From a virus, in IMG/VR virus record IMGVR_UViG_3300000117_000274, positions 1 through 22,982 of that record: 22,982 bases of DNA, one strand, 5' to 3'. The position numbers and the translations under genes are program-made. The notes below the pieces were generated by a model, which saw only the letters and a list, made by a program, of their open reading frames with translations, was not told the DNA's origin and made no database searches. Positions within the stretch are counted from its first letter, which is position 1, and the number at the start of each line of letters is the position of its first letter. Of this stretch, positions 2,295-22,982 are shown in pieces.

Positions 2295-2723
2295 ATGGCA
2301 CAACAAGGATTTGGAATCACATTCCAGTACACAGTAGATTCGGGCACCAGTTGGGTGAGCATCGGTGAAGTTACAGATGCAACTCCACCAAGCATTAGTA
2401 AAGACACAATTGACACGACTCATCACCAAACACCATCTGGTGTTCGCACCTTTATGGGTGGCTTGGTTGATAATGGTGAAGCAACTGTTGAAGTAAATTA
2501 TGATGTGGCTGACACAGGTCATATTCTCTTGCGCACGCGTGCAGGAGAGGCAAACGATTTGCCACTTCTATATCGCTTCATCCACAGTGACACTGCAGGA
2601 ACAATTGATGAATTTTCAGCACTCATCACAGGCTTTGAATCTGAAAGCCCAATGGATGATAAAGTATCTGCAACAATCACTCTGAAGATTTCAGGCGTAA
2701 TCGACTACGACACAACAGCATAA
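2295..2723 (+). CDS. Major tail tube protein
   Basis: A 142-aa protein built of beta strands. 'SWVSIGEVTDATPPSISKDTIDTTHH' near the N-terminus matches the start of lambda gpV-like and other siphophage tube proteins ('w..ig.v.s.s.p....d.id.T...'). A central G-rich loop precedes 'NGEATVEVNYD', and 'DKVSATITLKISGVID' closes the domain, the usual last strand 'v....tl.vsG.i'. It polymerises as hexameric rings into the tail tube. The 32-base gap before it carries AAGGA about nine bases upstream of ATG, one of the better ribosome sites in this block and fitting for a highly made protein. Confidence 0.85.
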   Translation: MAQQGFGITFQYTVDSGTSWVSIGEVTDATPPSISKDTIDTTHHQTPSGVRTFMGGLVDNGEATVEVNYDVADTGHILLRTRAGEANDLPLLYRFIHSDTAGTIDEFSALITGFESESPMDDKVSATITLKISGVIDYDTTA

Positions 2724-2727
2724 AAAA

Positions 2728-3018
2728 ATGGCTAAAATAACTTACAAAGGAGAGCAGGTTGATTTAAAAATCACCAATAAAACAATGATGAAGTTTGAGA
2801 TGGCAGGTGGTTCATTCTCAGATTTCAGCAGTGCTCCCATCTCTCAATCAATTAAATTTGTCTGTGCAGCTTTAGGGCTTGAAGGTGATCCTTGTGATCA
2901 TGCAGATGACTTTGGGAAGATGTCTGATGTCTCGGAGGCAATTAAAAATGCACTTGAGGAATCAGGATTTTCTGAAGCTGAGGATGCTGAAGTTGATGAG
3001 GGAAAATCAGATGGCTGA
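2728..3018 (+). CDS. Tail assembly chaperone, short form (gpG-like)
   Basis: A 96-aa acidic protein ending at TGA 3016-3018. It starts five bases after the tube gene and ends in an acidic tail (SEAEDAEVDEG). In lambda the equivalent gpG binds the tape measure and recruits tube protein but is absent from the virion. A -1 slippery heptamer lies four codons before the stop, and an overlapping open frame continues to the tape measure start. This is therefore the unshifted product of a G/GT pair. Sequence similarity to gpG is not visible by eye; the identification rests on position, size and the frameshift. Confidence 0.85.
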   Translation: MAKITYKGEQVDLKITNKTMMKFEMAGGSFSDFSSAPISQSIKFVCAALGLEGDPCDHADDFGKMSDVSEAIKNALEESGFSEAEDAEVDEGKSDG

Positions 3019-3296
3019 GTGCAGCAGCCAGAGGTAAGGTATTTTATGGTATCGGCAAAAAAGAATGGGGATCACTAGACCAGCATGAAGTAACAGAACT
3101 GCATAATGCTTATGAGCTTCAACAGGAACGTGAAGACAGCAGGTTTGCAATGGTTTGTTCAATCATTGCAAATGTAAATAGAGATCCAAAAACCAGAAGA
3201 AAGCCGTATCAAATATCTGACTTCATGCCAAGAAGAAAACCCACCAGTAAGAAAGAGCTTATCACAAAGATTAAACAAATAAAGACAGGAATATAG
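2728..3296 (+). CDS. Tail assembly chaperone, frameshifted long form (gpGT-like)
   Basis: Predicted -1 frameshift product of about 189 aa: 93 residues in the first frame to base 3006, then codons from 3006 to TAG 3294-3296. The T part begins IRWLSAAARG, continues with 'FYGIGKKEWGSLDQHEVTEL', and ends in a basic tail rich in Lys and Arg. The family's T domains show the same small helical region ('EW..l...E...l...') before a basic end. No plausible start codon lies near the beginning of this frame, so shifting is the obvious way to express it. The stop directly abuts the tape measure ATG at 3297. In lambda the GT form links tape measure to tube protein during assembly. Confidence 0.85.
3000..3030 (+). 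promoter_or_regulatory. -1 programmed ribosomal frameshift site (slippery heptamer plus hairpin)
   Basis: The heptamer G GGA AAA (3000-3006) is in the correct phase with the chaperone gene: GGA at 3001-3003, AAA at 3004-3006. It fits X XXY YYZ; lambda's own site is G GGA AAG. After a 5-base spacer, TGGCTG (3012-3017) pairs perfectly with CAGCCA (3025-3030) around a 7-base loop. The in-frame TGA lies partly inside the hairpin. Slipping back one base opens the frame that runs to the tape measure. Confidence 0.88.
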
Positions 3297-5069
3297 ATGG
3301 CAGTTAAAATTGGATCATTGTTCGGGACAGTAAGTCTAAACACTACACAGCTTGATAAAGATATCAGTCGTGTTGGTGCAAAGATGAAAAAGTTAGGCAA
3401 CGGCTTTAAGTCTGTTGGCTCTTCTTTGTCTCGTACAGTGACTGCACCAATTGCTGCTATTGGTGTGGCCAGCATTAAGACCTTTATGGACTTGGAGCAT
3501 TCAATGATGAAAGTCAAAGCAATCTCTGGGGCTACAGACGCTGAGTTTGCTATGCTGGAGAAGGATGCGAAGAAGCTTGGTCAAACAACAATCTATACTG
3601 CTCAACAGATTGCAGGCCTTCAGTTAAATCTTTCAAAGCTAGGTTTCGACCCGCAGGACATAGTCAACTCAACAGAGTCAATTCTTGGTTTAGCGCAAGC
3701 TACAGATGAAGACCTTGGTGAGACTGCTTTGGTTGTTGCTGGAACACTTCGTGCGTTTGGCATGGAGACAAGTCAGACAAGTAGAGTGACTGACATGATG
3801 GCAAAAGCCTTCTCTAATAGTGCTCTTAATCTAGAAAAATATAAAACGGGAATGGGCACTTTAGCCCCAGTTGCTAACTCGTTTGGTTTATCTGCTGAGC
3901 AATCAACTGCAATGCTTGCAACCCTAGTAGACGAAATGGTCGAAGCGTCTACTGCAGGCACAGGAATAAGAAATATGCTCTTGGACATGATGGGAGCAGG
4001 AATGTCACTTGATGAAGCATATGATGCAATCACTGGTTCGGTTAATCAAGGTGCAACAGCATTTGATATGTTTGGTAAAAGAGGTGCAACAGTTGCTATT
4101 ATTTTGGCAAACAATCAAAATAAAACATTTGAATTTGCTGAAGCATTAGATCACGCAACAGGAGCAGCAGATGCTATGAGAAAGATCATGGAAAGCTCTC
4201 TTTATGGTCAGTTCAAACTTTTCTTAAGTGTTGTTCAAGCTACTGCTGAGCAGATCGGTGAAGTCCTATCTCCTGTTTTCCTTGCTTGGATGGAGGTCAT
4301 TAAAGGAGCACTTAAGGAGTTTATGGCTTTGGATAAAGCCACTCAAGAAAACAAAATAAACTTTGCAATATGGGTGGCCCTAATTGGCCCAGCTGTTGTA
4401 ATCATTGGCACACTGCTTGTGGCATTTGCAATGATTATTACAGCAGTGACAACTATTGTAGGTATCGTTACTGCTGCTGGATTGGCATTCTGGGGGCTTG
4501 TGCTTTATATCACTGGTCTTGTTCTACTCATCAAACAGCTTATACCTTTGGGGGAAAAACTAGGTGAGTGGATTGGTGAGCTGGCCTTTGTTAAGTTGCC
4601 AGCATTGATAGATAAATTGTATAAGTCATCACCAATGTTTCGTCTTTTTTTAGATGGCATGAAGTCCATCTGGAGTTTCATTAGAAGCAGTTTGATTACT
4701 GCAATTGATCAACTGGTAAACAAATTAAATTTCGTTTGGAGTCTGTTTAAAAGAGTTGCTTCAGCAGTTGGTAGTCTTAATCCATTTGGCGGTGGAGGAG
4801 GAGGTGGGATTGATGGTGCCAGAGCACAGGGTGGCCCAGTAAACGCTGGTGGAACTTATCTTGTTGGTGAAAATGGGCCAGAGTTGTTCAGCCCAAGATA
4901 CAGCGGCAACATAACATCAAATGAAGACATGAATGCGGGTGGTGGAATCACCATGAACTTTTCTGTAGGAACAAGCATGGAAACAGTAGCAGCACTCAAG
5001 AATATGAAAAACTCAATTGCTAAAATTGCGGTTGCTGCTGTGAAAGAAAACACAATGAGAACTGTATAA
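3297..5069 (+). CDS. Tail tape measure protein
   Basis: A 590-aa protein of the TP901-type tape measure family (PhageMin_Tail). The N-terminus has a helical 'DKDISRVGAKMKKLGNGFKSVG' segment. The conserved core runs over residues 60-240: 'FMDLEHSMMKVKAISGAT', 'LGQTTIYTAQQIAGLQLNLSKLGF', 'LAPVANSFGLSAEQSTAMLATLVD', 'STAGTGIRNMLLDMM'. A long hydrophobic region (about 350-420) has several membrane-type segments, typical of tape measures that enter the cell envelope. A run of glycines near residue 500 separates the C-terminal domain. The protein sets tail length; at roughly 1.5 angstroms per residue it implies a tail of about 90 nm. It overlaps the next gene by one base (TAATG). Confidence 0.92.
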   Translation: MAVKIGSLFGTVSLNTTQLDKDISRVGAKMKKLGNGFKSVGSSLSRTVTAPIAAIGVASIKTFMDLEHSMMKVKAISGATDAEFAMLEKDAKKLGQTTIYTAQQIAGLQLNLSKLGFDPQDIVNSTESILGLAQATDEDLGETALVVAGTLRAFGMETSQTSRVTDMMAKAFSNSALNLEKYKTGMGTLAPVANSFGLSAEQSTAMLATLVDEMVEASTAGTGIRNMLLDMMGAGMSLDEAYDAITGSVNQGATAFDMFGKRGATVAIILANNQNKTFEFAEALDHATGAADAMRKIMESSLYGQFKLFLSVVQATAEQIGEVLSPVFLAWMEVIKGALKEFMALDKATQENKINFAIWVALIGPAVVIIGTLLVAFAMIITAVTTIVGIVTAAGLAFWGLVLYITGLVLLIKQLIPLGEKLGEWIGELAFVKLPALIDKLYKSSPMFRLFLDGMKSIWSFIRSSLITAIDQLVNKLNFVWSLFKRVASAVGSLNPFGGGGGGGIDGARAQGGPVNAGGTYLVGENGPELFSPRYSGNITSNEDMNAGGGITMNFSVGTSMETVAALKNMKNSIAKIAVAAVKENTMRTV

Positions 5070-14113: not shown

Positions 14114-16963
14114 TTAATGTCTAGTCAACTCTTTTTTCTGATTTTTTTTAAATAGGTTGTTATCAGTAAGCTTTATGATTCGATCAATGAATAGCAGCGA
14201 CCAGTCAGCATTCTTTTTCCCTTTTATTATATACCAATCACCCAATTTCCCTTTGTCGAAGATCTCCTTGCCTATCTTCATGTACTTGTGTCGATCAACC
14301 ATTCCACCAATCATCCCAGTGTCATCCTCTAGCATTAGCTTTAAGAATAGAGTCTGCCCAGTCATTTCCCTTCCTGATCTTTTATCAACAGAGTGTGACT
14401 CATTGTGGCATCTCAAATTCTTTTCCGTCATCTTTGCAATAAAAACAAACTCACCTGATTCTCCTAATCCGACATTACCGATATGTGATATTTTTGAGGA
14501 CACATTATATTTTTCAGGCTCTTTAATTATGTGGCCCCACTTGTTTTGGCCTTCCCATATATCATCCCATGCTGTGGTGCCAGAAGTTAATATGTTCTTT
14601 TGCCTGAGTGTATATTCACCACCATTTCTTCTTTTCAAAATATCTGCAGCCAGCTTATCACCGACACCTTTTATTCCGACCAGACCACCAATTAACTTCC
14701 CATCTTGTACTGACCAATTTGCCAGTGATTTATCTTTATCATATGCCACATATTCATGCCCCTCTTTGCTAAGCTCTCTTAGTATCTTAATACTCTGGTC
14801 ATCATCCTTTGCATTTCTCAGGCATGCGGCGGCAAACTCAAGTGGGTGATGAGCCTTCATCACACAACACCAGTATGATATCATTCCATAAGCAACCGCA
14901 TGTGATCGGTTGAATGCCCATGACCCCATTGTATTAATGTTGTCCCAGATAATCTTTGCATCGATAGAGTCGATGCCATTTTCTTTTGCACCCTTCTCAA
15001 ACTGAAACCAGAACTTATCGAAAAACTCTTTCCCTAATGACTTACTCATCGCCTTACGCAAGCTACTAACATCGGGCCAGCTCATGTTGCCAATATTTCT
15101 TGCAATCTGCATGACCTGCTCTTGGTAAACAATGATACCAAGAGTGTCTTCTGTATGTTCTCTTAATGATGGGTGTACATACTTTACTGGAGATGCTCCA
15201 GACTTCCTACGTAAGAATTCTGCAGTACCACCAGAACTTAACGGGCCTGTTCTACCCAATGCATTCATGCATGCGATGTCATCAAAACACTCAAACACCA
15301 TTTGCCCGCAAAGACCTTGCAGTGTATTTCCTTCAAACTGAAAAACACCAGCAAAGTTTCCACTGTTTAGGATATCAATCGCCTTCTTGTCATCCATTGG
15401 CCAAGACTTCAATTGATCCCTGCTCATGCCAGACTGATCAAGAGCATCCTGTAGAACACTCAGGGTTCTCAATCCAAGGACATCAATCTTTAGTAATCCA
15501 ATGCCTTCAGCATTATACTTGTCGATCATTGCACATCCATTTTTCTCATCAACAGAGCAGTATTTTGTTATCGGGTCTGCAGTGACAATTATTCCAGCAG
15601 CGTGCATCCCCGTGTGCCTCACGTGGCCCTCAACCTCTGCAGCAATCAAAAGTTCTGGGTGTTTGGCAATGGTTTTCTTTCCTTCTGATTGAGTGTCAAA
15701 AGAATCCTGAAGACAATTACTATTTTTTTGTTCAATGATAGAGTTTTTTAAATCAGCAACTTCCCATGATGGAATATTTAATGACTTACTGACATCAACA
15801 ATTGCTGACTTAGGTTTAAACACACTGACTGTACCAAGCTTAGCCACACAGTCTGATCCATATTTCTTGCCAAGATATTCAACTAACATTTCACGTTTAG
15901 TATCTTCAAAATCAATATCAATATCTGGGTAATCTTCACGGTTAAGATCAATAAACCTTTCAAACAATAGATTGTACTCTATTGGATCAATGTCTGTGAT
16001 GCCTATCAGATAACAAACTAATGATCCGCAAGATGAACCCCGTGCTGGGCCAACAAACATTTTCGTCTTTGCATACTTAACAAGGTCTGCAACAACATAG
16101 AAATAGTCTTCAAAGTTTTTAGCAGATATCAGCCCTAATTCCTTATCAAGCCTATCACCGTAATCTTTGTCTTCTAGATCGACACCAAGAAGCATGGCAC
16201 CTTCTATGCACATCTGTCTTAGAGGCATATCGATTGGTGGTGATACCATCTTTGCAAATGGAACCTCCGCATGACAGTCTTTAAAAACTGATTCTGTACG
16301 AATCAAAACATCTTCGAATCTATCACCAAAATGTCCAAGCCATTCCTCTGTTGTCATTATATGACTTGGGCTTGTTCGCATTTCATAGTTTTGCATACCA
16401 ACAATAACTTGGTGCTTTTTTAAATCTTCTGGTCGTGGGTAATAGTTGTTGGAGCACGCCAAGATCTTATCCCTGTAAAGCTCAGATATCCTGTTCCTAT
16501 AATATGTATTACACTGACTATCAAGTGCGACATAAAACCCATCTCTGGACATAAACCTTTCTGCGTTAGACTCATCCCAGTATGCACCAAGAACAACTAT
16601 CACATTGTCAGAAACATTTTCAACAACACCCCAGTCAATCCTTGGGATATAATAAAACTTCTCTGTTGATAATGCCGTAATCTCATAAATCTCCCTAAGG
16701 CCCTCAGAGTTCTTTGCAAAAAATCTTGTGTATGATATTGCCTGTTTTGAACGCTCATCACAATTCATGACTGTGGCAACCTCAACACCAAGGATTGGTT
16801 TCTTACCAGCCTTCTTGCATGCCTTAATAAAATCTATATGACCCCAAGTGCTTGCACGATCACACATGCCAATCATCTCATCTGGGTTAGCATTTATGAC
16901 ATCACTTAAAGTTCCAGTAGCGATACGGAATGAATACTGTGTTCTGTTAGCAATATTAATCAT
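14114..16963 (-). CDS. dnaE: DnaE-like DNA polymerase III alpha subunit
   Basis: A 949-aa C-family polymerase, shorter than the roughly 1160-aa E. coli protein. Palm motifs are intact: 'GPARGSSCGSLV' (305-316), 'PDIDIDFED' (346-354, D349 and D351 as metal ligands), 'GLLKIDVLGLRTL' (third Asp) and 'FNRSHAVAYGMISYW'. The C-terminal 100 residues look like an OB domain ('GEFVFIAKM...GQTLFLKLMLED'). The N-terminal PHP domain is recognisable ('KACKKAGKKPILGVEV') but its metal ligands are replaced: the H-x-H site reads N-R-T and the TDH site reads CDR. It should therefore have no PHP nuclease activity. It overlaps the exonuclease gene by ATGA, so both are probably made together as a replicase core. 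Confidence 0.93.
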   Translation of the reverse strand: MINIANRTQYSFRIATGTLSDVINANPDEMIGMCDRASTWGHIDFIKACKKAGKKPILGVEVATVMNCDERSKQAISYTRFFAKNSEGLREIYEITALSTEKFYYIPRIDWGVVENVSDNVIVVLGAYWDESNAERFMSRDGFYVALDSQCNTYYRNRISELYRDKILACSNNYYPRPEDLKKHQVIVGMQNYEMRTSPSHIMTTEEWLGHFGDRFEDVLIRTESVFKDCHAEVPFAKMVSPPIDMPLRQMCIEGAMLLGVDLEDKDYGDRLDKELGLISAKNFEDYFYVVADLVKYAKTKMFVGPARGSSCGSLVCYLIGITDIDPIEYNLLFERFIDLNREDYPDIDIDFEDTKREMLVEYLGKKYGSDCVAKLGTVSVFKPKSAIVDVSKSLNIPSWEVADLKNSIIEQKNSNCLQDSFDTQSEGKKTIAKHPELLIAAEVEGHVRHTGMHAAGIIVTADPITKYCSVDEKNGCAMIDKYNAEGIGLLKIDVLGLRTLSVLQDALDQSGMSRDQLKSWPMDDKKAIDILNSGNFAGVFQFEGNTLQGLCGQMVFECFDDIACMNALGRTGPLSSGGTAEFLRRKSGASPVKYVHPSLREHTEDTLGIIVYQEQVMQIARNIGNMSWPDVSSLRKAMSKSLGKEFFDKFWFQFEKGAKENGIDSIDAKIIWDNINTMGSWAFNRSHAVAYGMISYWCCVMKAHHPLEFAAACLRNAKDDDQSIKILRELSKEGHEYVAYDKDKSLANWSVQDGKLIGGLVGIKGVGDKLAADILKRRNGGEYTLRQKNILTSGTTAWDDIWEGQNKWGHIIKEPEKYNVSSKISHIGNVGLGESGEFVFIAKMTEKNLRCHNESHSVDKRSGREMTGQTLFLKLMLEDDTGMIGGMVDRHKYMKIGKEIFDKGKLGDWYIIKGKKNADWSLLFIDRIIKLTDNNLFKKNQKKELTRH

Positions 16964-17505
16964 TTCAATTCTATATAGTTGTTATCAATCATCCACAAAG
17001 CACAGGTGCAAAGGGCCTCAACATCATTCATTGCTCTGTGCGCACCTGAAAATTCTAGACCATCGGTTGCCAATTCAAACAGTGCAGACTGCTTAAGCCT
17101 AAAGCCTTTGATATGAAAACTCTGCTCCACAGTGCATATCAAATTCGTTGGCATTTCAAAATCATCCCTCCCAGCTCTTTCAAACTCAAGCTCAAGCATC
17201 AGTTTATCAAAGGCCAGATTGTGAGCTATCAGATTATTTTCACCAGAAAAGAATGAAACTATCTCATCAATTTTATCCTCAAAAAAGCATGCATCTTTAA
17301 GCATAGAATCCGTAATGTTAGTTATCTTAATTATCTCTGGAGGTATTTTCCTCTTTGGATTAATCAAGAACTGTATGCGATCAGTTTCACGAAAGTCATC
17401 ATCAGAAAGCTTTATGGCGGCGAATTCAATTATCTTGGGTTGGTGCCTATTGTTAGATGCAATCGCCTTTGGAAGGCCCGTTGTTTCAGTGTCGAATATG
17501 ATCAT
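16960..17505 (-). CDS. dnaQ: DnaQ-like 3'-5' proofreading exonuclease
   Basis: A 181-aa DEDDh exonuclease. ExoI is 'IIFDTETTGL' (D5, E7). ExoII is 'LIAHNLAFDKLMLE' (D100). ExoIII is 'GAHRAMNDVEAL' (H156, D161). All catalytic residues are present. Its size fits the catalytic domain of the epsilon subunit without the C-terminal linker. Direct coupling to the DnaE-like gene (ATGA at 16960-16963) says it is the proofreader of that polymerase. The leader is short and A-rich, resembles a shortened form of the repeated leader element, and lies immediately after a terminator. Confidence 0.92.
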   Translation of the reverse strand: MIIFDTETTGLPKAIASNNRHQPKIIEFAAIKLSDDDFRETDRIQFLINPKRKIPPEIIKITNITDSMLKDACFFEDKIDEIVSFFSGENNLIAHNLAFDKLMLELEFERAGRDDFEMPTNLICTVEQSFHIKGFRLKQSALFELATDGLEFSGAHRAMNDVEALCTCALWMIDNNYIELK

Positions 17506-19386: not shown

Positions 19387-19562
19387 ATTTTTTTTATCTG
19401 TATGTCTGTTGTGAATTTTATGTTCTTTGAGTATCCTCTTCTTGTCCAAAAGTAAACCCATCCTTTGTGTATGTCTTTTTTTAGATTATCCATTTCATGC
19501 TTTTTAGAAGTAGAAAATAAATCTATGTCTTGCTTTCTTCCTTTTGTTGATTGTCTCTTCAT
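19383..19562 (-). CDS. Small basic hypothetical protein coupled at both ends
   Basis: A 59-aa protein. The ATG at 19562 overlaps the primase-helicase stop (ATGA), and its own TGA overlaps the next start (ATGA at 19383-19386). A frame that fills this gap exactly with overlaps at both ends is strong evidence for a real gene. The protein is very basic (opening MKRQSTKGRKQD, ending IQIKKI) with a central aromatic stretch 'KGWVYFWTRRGYSKNIKF'. It could bind nucleic acid, but no known motif is present. Confidence 0.75.
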   Translation of the reverse strand: MKRQSTKGRKQDIDLFSTSKKHEMDNLKKDIHKGWVYFWTRRGYSKNIKFTTDIQIKKI

Positions 19563-21685
19563 ACAGGCTCACTCTCCAAAAGCTTATTAGTCTCTTCAAT
19601 GTTTCCATTAGCCATCCCATCCTCATACAGTTGGGATATTAGCTTTCGGTTATCTTCATAGGTTTCCATGTGGGTTCCGATGTTTCTCAACGCCCAAAGT
19701 CTTCGTGTGCTTCCAGAACTTAAAGTAAGCTGTGCTGGAAACTGAACTGCACCAAGCTCTTTTATCTTCCTACCTATGGCATGACTGGTTATTGATTTAC
19801 CAAACTTCTTCTTAATGACCTCAGACAAGTCTGATACCGATATGATATCATTAATGAATGGCCACTCACGATTTTCAAACCTCTCATCAATGAACTCATC
19901 AATTGGCATCTTTGTTGCATTGATTGCGATTCGCTTGCCAGCTGTCATTGGTGCGTGGCCATTAGGATTGAACTCACTGATATCTCTATTCAAAAAGTAA
20001 TATAGAATGCAGTCATAATTATCACGTGTCCAGTTCCACAGCTTACCATAGTAGGATGATGGCTGTGGCTTAACATCTGAATAAACCATACAGTATCTTC
20101 GGTCATCCTTGTCCACAATTATTGAGTCATCATAGTTCGTAAATGCAATTAGGTTGGCAACATTCTTCATCTTGTATGCTGGCTTATGCATCTCTCTAAT
20201 CTGAACAACACCCTGTGTGATGATTGGCTTTAGCTTGTTCATCAAATCCATTCTACCTCTAGCCATCAACTCCTCAATAATTATTAGATGACTGCTCTTT
20301 AACCATCCTGTGTATATCTCATGAATCTCATCATTGCTTGGCATACTGACATTGTGCTGACCAAGCAAATGCACTAAGACATCACCAATGTAAGACTTGC
20401 CTGTGCCCTGATGGCCACGAAGGATAAGCATCCAAAGTATCTTATGACCTTTTTTCTGAACACAATAGGCCATGAAATCCAAAACTATCTTACGCTCATT
20501 ATCATCTATAAAAAGATAATCAAAGTGATCAAGCAGGATAGAAACATCACCCTCTTTAGGAGTTAGCTTTGACGGCCTATAAAGATTATAGGTCTGCTGA
20601 GCATTGTCAGAGTCGATATAAACCAATGGTTGCTTAGGGTCATATGCCAACTGTGGATATTTCTTAAACTGTGGATTGGATATTGCATTCTTCGATGCTG
20701 TCCCCCGCTCCACAAGGTGAGCAAACTCATCACTGTACTGCTCCTTATCATATTCAATCATTGTCTCAACGTTATGAAATCGCTTAGTGCTTACCACATA
20801 TACCCATCCCTTTGGCTGGTTTGGCATCAACATCTCTGAACAGAACTCTTCTGCCTGCTGATCTGTCATTAAGCTTATAACATCCTTGTTCCCATCAATC
20901 AGGACATCATCAATGCCCTTGCCAGCACACATGGGCCAGTCCTCTATGATCGGCCTTCCAACCTGCTGATCTCTGATTGAGCAATACAACTTGGCCAACG
21001 CAACTCCAACCTTTGGCAAGTCCTCTTGGCTTGGGTCTGATGCACCATCCTTATTGATGTATGGGTTTGCCTTGTCTTTATCTGCATCAAAACTCAACAG
21101 GATTTTCTTTGGTTTTAATTCTTGAATGGCATCCATTGCCATCCTCCAATTACTGACTCCAGATATTGAGATCGTATACACACCAGTGAATTTTGTTGCC
21201 AGCTCAGCCTTGAATTCGCCTTCAGTTATTCGAATAACGCCACCCTTACAATTCTCTTTTCCCCACAATGGAAAATGATTAGACACTGTTGCAGCTGTGC
21301 CTTCTGGGTATTTGACTTCACCGTTTTTCGCTGGTCTAGGATTAGTAGACAAAAGCAAATACTTGCTGGTAGGGTTGACTGGCCTATCACTCCTGATCTT
21401 AAGACCTAAGATCTCATTGGATGAACTGCGTACTGGAATGATTATGCCAGAGCAGCCTGATAATGCCCAGCTGTCGTTATCCTTATAGAATCCAGCACAC
21501 TTACCTAGATCAGACTCATCGACAGTCTCTAGGAGCTTCTGAACAACAGACTTCCTACGCATAGGCATTGTTCTAAACTGACAAAGCTCAATCGCCTCAT
21601 CCGTAAAGCCTCGGTTAGTCAAGTCGGTCTTGTGCTGTGAGCTTAGGTCTAGTAACCCAATTAACTTTTCGTATATACTATGCAT
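19559..21685 (-). CDS. Primase-helicase (TOPRIM plus superfamily 3 ATPase)
   Basis: A 708-aa protein. The TOPRIM-type primase region has 'IRITEGEFKAELA' (151-163, E155), 'TISISGVSNW' and 'ILLSFDADKDK' (195-205), as in DUF3854-like primases. The ATPase region has Walker A 'GHQGTGKS' (424-431), Walker B 'HLIIIEEL' (466-473), and 'NLIAFTNYDD' with 'DKDDRRY' (511-531) as the SF3 sensor and arginine-finger area. The C-terminal part looks like a winged helix ('SDLSEVIKKKFGKSITSHAIGRKIKELG'). It would unwind the fork and prime lagging-strand synthesis. No N-terminal zinc ribbon is seen. The start overlaps the lysin stop by 8 bases, and the stop overlaps the next ATG. Confidence 0.9.
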   Translation of the reverse strand: MHSIYEKLIGLLDLSSQHKTDLTNRGFTDEAIELCQFRTMPMRRKSVVQKLLETVDESDLGKCAGFYKDNDSWALSGCSGIIIPVRSSSNEILGLKIRSDRPVNPTSKYLLLSTNPRPAKNGEVKYPEGTAATVSNHFPLWGKENCKGGVIRITEGEFKAELATKFTGVYTISISGVSNWRMAMDAIQELKPKKILLSFDADKDKANPYINKDGASDPSQEDLPKVGVALAKLYCSIRDQQVGRPIIEDWPMCAGKGIDDVLIDGNKDVISLMTDQQAEEFCSEMLMPNQPKGWVYVVSTKRFHNVETMIEYDKEQYSDEFAHLVERGTASKNAISNPQFKKYPQLAYDPKQPLVYIDSDNAQQTYNLYRPSKLTPKEGDVSILLDHFDYLFIDDNERKIVLDFMAYCVQKKGHKILWMLILRGHQGTGKSYIGDVLVHLLGQHNVSMPSNDEIHEIYTGWLKSSHLIIIEELMARGRMDLMNKLKPIITQGVVQIREMHKPAYKMKNVANLIAFTNYDDSIIVDKDDRRYCMVYSDVKPQPSSYYGKLWNWTRDNYDCILYYFLNRDISEFNPNGHAPMTAGKRIAINATKMPIDEFIDERFENREWPFINDIISVSDLSEVIKKKFGKSITSHAIGRKIKELGAVQFPAQLTLSSGSTRRLWALRNIGTHMETYEDNRKLISQLYEDGMANGNIEETNKLLESEPV

Positions 21686-22786: not shown

Positions 22787-22819
22787 TTTTACATTTATTT
22801 TACATTTTTTTTACATTTG
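22787..22819. repeat. Three tandem 11-bp repeats (TTTTACATTT + 1)
   Basis: TTTTACATTTA (22787-22797), TTTTACATTTT (22798-22808) and TTTTACATTTG (22809-22819) follow each other without gaps, identical at the first ten bases. The 11-bp period is close to one helical turn, so the units face the same side of the helix. This fits an iteron-like binding site or a bent AT-rich unwinding element. Confidence 0.75.
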
Positions 22820-22827
22820 GAGGTTTT

Positions 22828-22982
22828 GGCCCGCAGGCACCGAGGCACCGAGCCATCAGGGCACCGAGGCACACCGAGGCACAGGGCCATCAGGCCCGCA
22901 GGCACACCGAGGCACCGAGGCACCGAGCCATCAGGGCACCGAGGCACAGGGCCATCAGGCCCGCAGGCACACCGAGGCACCG
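22828..22982. repeat. GC-rich mosaic tandem repeat, 65-bp period, cut by window end
   Basis: The motif GGCCCGCAGGCAC occurs at 22828, 22893 and 22958, exactly 65 bases apart. Each full 65-bp unit is made of the same short modules: CGAGGCAC, ACCGAGGCAC, CGAGCCATCAGG, GCACCGAGGCAC and AGGGCCATCA. In unit 1 the ACCGAGGCAC module comes late, in unit 2 early. The third unit starts like unit 2 and is cut at the edge. The base composition contrasts sharply with the AT-rich DNA next to it. Open frames across it are low-complexity and not taken as genes. Confidence 0.85.

Follow-up and report, generated by a model that had tools for sequence, protein, structure and literature searches.

The sequence examined here is a single metagenomic virus record from an uncultivated phage (IMGVR_UViG_3300000117_000274), analysed over a stretch of 22,982 nt that is referred to below as the window. 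Two overlapping reading frames sit between its tail tube and tape measure genes, and the features of this region are the following:

2295..2723, + strand: lambda-like tail tube (major tail) protein gene, upstream of G (PF16461, E 3.5e-12; phrog_158, E 4e-19)
2728..3018, + strand: gene for a G-like tail assembly chaperone of 96 aa (0 frame), flanked by the tail tube and tape measure genes
3000..3006, + strand: slippery heptamer G GGA AAA, in phase with gene G
3007..3011, + strand: 5-nt spacer TCAGA
3012..3030, + strand: predicted stem-loop of 6 bp, TGGCTG (3012-3017) with CAGCCA (3025-3030), a likely stimulator
3016..3018, + strand: 0-frame stop TGA, at the 5' arm/loop of the hairpin
3006..3296, + strand: T extension, -1 frame, 96 aa plus stop TAG (3294-3296), identified by PF06223 and dN/dS
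3297..5069, + strand: tape measure protein gene, 590 aa (PF10145, E 3.5e-30; phrog_1533, E 1.9e-74)

In the 0 frame, gene G ends as ...GAG GGA AAA TCA GAT GGC TGA. The -1 frame is open from 3000, is bounded on its 5' side by a TGA at 2997-2999 and runs to the TAG at 3294-3296, with the tape measure ATG (3297) directly 3' of this stop. Since the two frames are bounded by the TGA codons at 2997-2999 and 3016-3018, a change of frame is possible only within 3000-3018, and this overlap contains exactly one slippery heptamer. The first-pass annotation had described a gene G ending four codons past an in-phase G GGA AAA, a 5-base spacer followed by a perfect TGGCTG/CAGCCA hairpin, and a -1 frame open for 96 codons up to the tape measure gene, all of which are borne out by these coordinates. 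The heptamer is not rare as such, as GGGAAAA occurs six times in the window against 3.3 expected occurrences. Among the 6327 codons of the window genes, in-phase heptamers of any XXXYYYZ kind were found at 30, and GGGAAAA or AAAAAAG in phase at only 4, a frequency that makes a chance occurrence within the five-codon overlap unlikely. The non-random aspect of the heptamer is its phase and place, not its letters.

The closest relatives, L002 and L003, are IMG/VR contigs that are identical to each other in this region and share 88% identity with the window across the G-T DNA. They carry the identical heptamer with a 0-frame TAA directly 3' of it, while the last upstream stop of the -1 frame lies one codon before it, which leaves the heptamer as the sole possible shift site. 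Further relatives (L013 to L017) were found by searching with the GT fusion, whereas the T extension or the tape measure protein as lone query, as well as tape measure profile scans, returned L002/L003 only or nothing. In L013, L014, L015 and L017, the G proteins are 48-55% and the T proteins 32-38% identical to those of the window, and the T frame is open. The heptamer of L013-L017 is A AAA AAC or A AAA AAA, positioned at the equivalent site, with the 0-frame stop ending 12 nt further on; this stop is a TAG at the place of the TGA in the window. Conservation of the heptamer, which had been proposed as a check, thus holds for its slippery function but not for its letters (GGGAAAA, AAAAAAC, AAAAAAA). 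The relatives keep the T frame together with a slippery heptamer.

The T extension alone matches the Pfam family Minor tail protein T (Phage_tail_T, PF06223) with an E value of 6.1e-10 and a score of 39.8 bits (curated cut-off 25.9) over residues 37-94, and the same family is matched by all six aligned T frames. The expectation that the 96-residue extension would be gpT-like was therefore confirmed, and the earlier warning that ORF calling alone would create a false gap at 3019-3296 is agreed with. The probability of an open frame of 96 codons in base shuffles of the region is about 0.001. In three pairs of related contigs, dN/dS in the -1 frame is 0.23, 0.10 and 0.18, as opposed to about 0.9 or more for the same DNA read in the other two frames. 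The T extension is a real coding region, which to judge by these ratios evolves as a protein in the -1 frame only. Profile comparison with lambda T or with the G protein of phage PV036453 yielded no significant score, so that the assignment to T depends on PF06223, and the AlphaFold model of T (pLDDT 55) was too poor for a fold search.

Synthesis of T alone from an internal or non-standard start, with no frameshift, might be considered because the frame contains two ATG codons (3150 and 3225), and because the T frames of L013 and L014 hold a start codon from which 89 aa could be translated. However, these two are the only ATG, GTG or TTG codons in the T frame of the window, would yield 48 and 23 residues, and both begin inside the T domain (ATG 3150 is residue 49); moreover, the position of ATG 3150 is a TTG in L002, while L015 and L017 have no start that gives at least 60 aa. 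In the alignment of relatives, protein conservation starts directly past the heptamer, where a W-L pair is invariant, which further argues against an independent start; this explanation is very improbable. The earlier statement that the T frame has no usable start is right in substance. Still less credible is the notion that the split reflects an assembly frameshift error or a decayed gene rather than a programmed event. Although the window is one metagenomic virus record, at least four distinct relatives from different records are split alike, each at a slippery heptamer, and purifying selection acts on both frames.

A further alternative is that the frame is changed not by the ribosome but by transcriptional slippage on a run of A, for which the eight consecutive A at the site in L015 and L017 could be cited. 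RNA polymerase slippage usually needs longer homopolymers, and this counts against it here, as the run in the window and in L002 is just four A long, preceded by three G; transcriptional slippage is accordingly regarded as highly unlikely.

The hairpin of the window has a predicted folding energy of -8.6 kcal/mol, a 7-nt loop (3018-3024) and a stem that overlaps the 0-frame stop. A perfect stem of at least 6 bp located 4-9 nt downstream would arise by chance in 0.7-1.5% of cases; the folding energy itself is unexceptional, as 12% of gene windows and 25-42% of synonymous recodings fold equally well. This hairpin is the weakest element of the site, just modestly better than chance, and stronger support comes from the relatives. 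The hairpin of L002/L003 equals that of the window letter for letter and, being invariant in the only close relative, the window hairpin offers no covariation of its own. The hairpins of L013, L014, L015 and L017 have energies of -12 to -19 kcal/mol (the lowest being -18.8 kcal/mol in 40 nt); they are strong in L015 and L017, that of L015 being more stable than 99.97% of its synonymous recodings. In L013-L017, the heptamer is followed after 5 nt by an invariant TGGCT and then by a hairpin longer than that of the window, and the distance from heptamer to TGGCT is equal in all seven sequences. The hairpins of the window and L002 on one side and L013-L017 on the other have a common start but another register and different 3' arms, which indicates conservation by position rather than pair by pair; counting pairs for compensatory changes across these two sets gave no clear signal. 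Of the stem that homologues were expected to conserve, a downstream hairpin at the same place was recovered, but its pairing differs in L013-L017. Spacers are typically 5-9 nt long (PMC7618472), a range that the 5 nt observed here fits, and the hairpin at this distance probably helps slippage. It may tentatively be suggested, at odds that are against rather than for the idea, that this one tail-module family has exchanged both its heptamer and the register of its stimulatory hairpin but preserved the 5' arm ATGGCT at an unchanged spacing. If true, the family would be a natural experiment in which heptamer strength and hairpin stability are traded against each other so that the ratio of G to GT is maintained.

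In position and length, the G protein fits a putative tail assembly chaperone. Its homologues were found in L011 and L013-L017 (48-91% identity), and the G proteins of two relatives match weakly (best E 0.0064) to phrog_2115 'tail protein', the family to which the equivalent PV036453 gene belongs. The G protein of the window had no match above threshold among the Pfam and PHROG chaperone (TAC) families, and no matches to phages by tblastn, and its AlphaFold model (pLDDT 57) was too poor for a fold search. Profile searches of the PDB returned no credible match.

In bacteriophage lambda (NC_001416), the G/T junction likewise lies between the tail tube and tape measure genes and shifts in the -1 direction, and an in-phase G GGA AAG (L008:510-516) is situated a few codons before the G stop, as had been claimed; in the same test, lambda T also matches PF06223. 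The two systems differ in the last base of the heptamer (G in lambda, A in the window), in the end of T, which overlaps the tape measure ATG in lambda but stops directly before it in the window, and in G, which matches PF06894 only in lambda. There is also no comparable hairpin after the lambda heptamer (MFE -6.6, with 71% of recodings folding equally well). The description of the cassette as 'lambda-type' is thus appropriate for the heptamer and its position but not for the hairpin. A heptamer identical to that of the window, GGGAAAA, is given for the tail chaperone frameshift of TM4 in a passage of PMC4626039 citing Xu 2004, and is annotated in that of Bush (PMC11749239). These phages share the gene pair, a likeness known from papers rather than from sequence comparison, but differ in having actinobacterial hosts.

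T proteins belonging to PF06223 also occur in Syntrophomonadaceae phage IMGVR 15540650 (PV036453) and Pasteurella phage Pmp14 (OR544131), with 42-46% identity to T of the window over ~50 residues. In both, the T frame lies in -1 relative to G and opens as G ends, at in-phase C CCA AAC, or C CCA AAG and A AAA AAC; the heptamers differ from that of the window, no hairpin is clearly shared, and the frames are annotated as separate genes. In PV036453 (L009, 1366-1719), the T-like frame, which the record lists as a hypothetical gene of its own, opens at a C CCA AAC TAG that terminates the upstream gene; it matches PF06223 and, weakly, Phage_TAC_6, a double match that hints at a connection of lambda-type T with GTA-type chaperones. 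Roseobacter phage CRP-831 (PV211014) has a related distal tail gene, and its G/T region is likened to that of the window by layout only. Its annotated chaperone (L020, 2878-3036) ends A AAA AAC TAA, and an unannotated -1 frame of 52 codons fills the gap before the tape measure gene, a probable missed GT extension in the public record. In Roseobacter phage CRP-6, a -1 frame is open between the gene and the tape measure, and no XXXYYYZ heptamer was found there.

G-T frameshifting is conserved among long-tailed phages (PMC5009743), and the arrangement described here almost certainly represents a conserved -1 programmed ribosomal frameshift between the tail assembly chaperone genes G and T. This reading rests on the gene layout, the gpT homology, the selection on the -1 frame and the conserved position of the shift site; beyond these, we infer the slippage itself, its efficiency, a role for the hairpin and a function in assembling the tail. 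Most ribosomes would read gene G through to the TGA at 3016-3018, while a minority would move one base back on G GGA AAA, probably aided by the hairpin, and continue in the -1 frame to 3296, giving a GT fusion of 189 residues. By analogy with lambda, excess G may coat the tape measure protein and the T domain of GT may recruit tail tube subunits, and both proteins presumably act ahead of tail tube polymerisation around the tape measure. The G/GT frameshift put forward by the first-pass annotation is thereby supported through the gpT-like extension and, in the relatives, the conserved heptamer position, the hairpin and the T frame. The locus is an ordinary, well-supported example of the known G/GT frameshift of siphoviruses; it holds little surprise and changes nothing fundamental. 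Its value lies in a correct two-product annotation of the tail chaperone, where an ORF caller would leave 3019-3296 empty, for a phage group that had no close cultured relative among the collections searched, and in four or five additional, distinct G/GT junctions at which related phages use different slippery heptamers.

Several other features of these contigs were observed. In L016, the T frame (3219-3422) is shortened by a stop near the contig edge, unlike in its near twin L015; this stop may be a contig-edge error or a real nonsense change. Ahead of the tail tube position, L017 (1497-2552) and L016 (910-1989) have an extra gene of ~350 codons that is absent from the window and L015. L018, a genome_contigs match, was rejected as short, of low identity and without a G or T frame around it. 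The window itself encodes its own bacterial-type replicase on the minus strand (14114-17505), a DNA polymerase III alpha subunit of 949 aa (PF07733, PF17657, PHP), whose gene adjoins that of a DnaQ-like exonuclease (PF00929), and a primase-like gene is located at 19559-21685. At the right end of the record (22787-22982), a degenerate tandem repeat with units of 8/24/41 bases, GGCACCGA, adjoins a short AT-rich repeat and may be either an artefact of the assembly end or a terminal repeat region.
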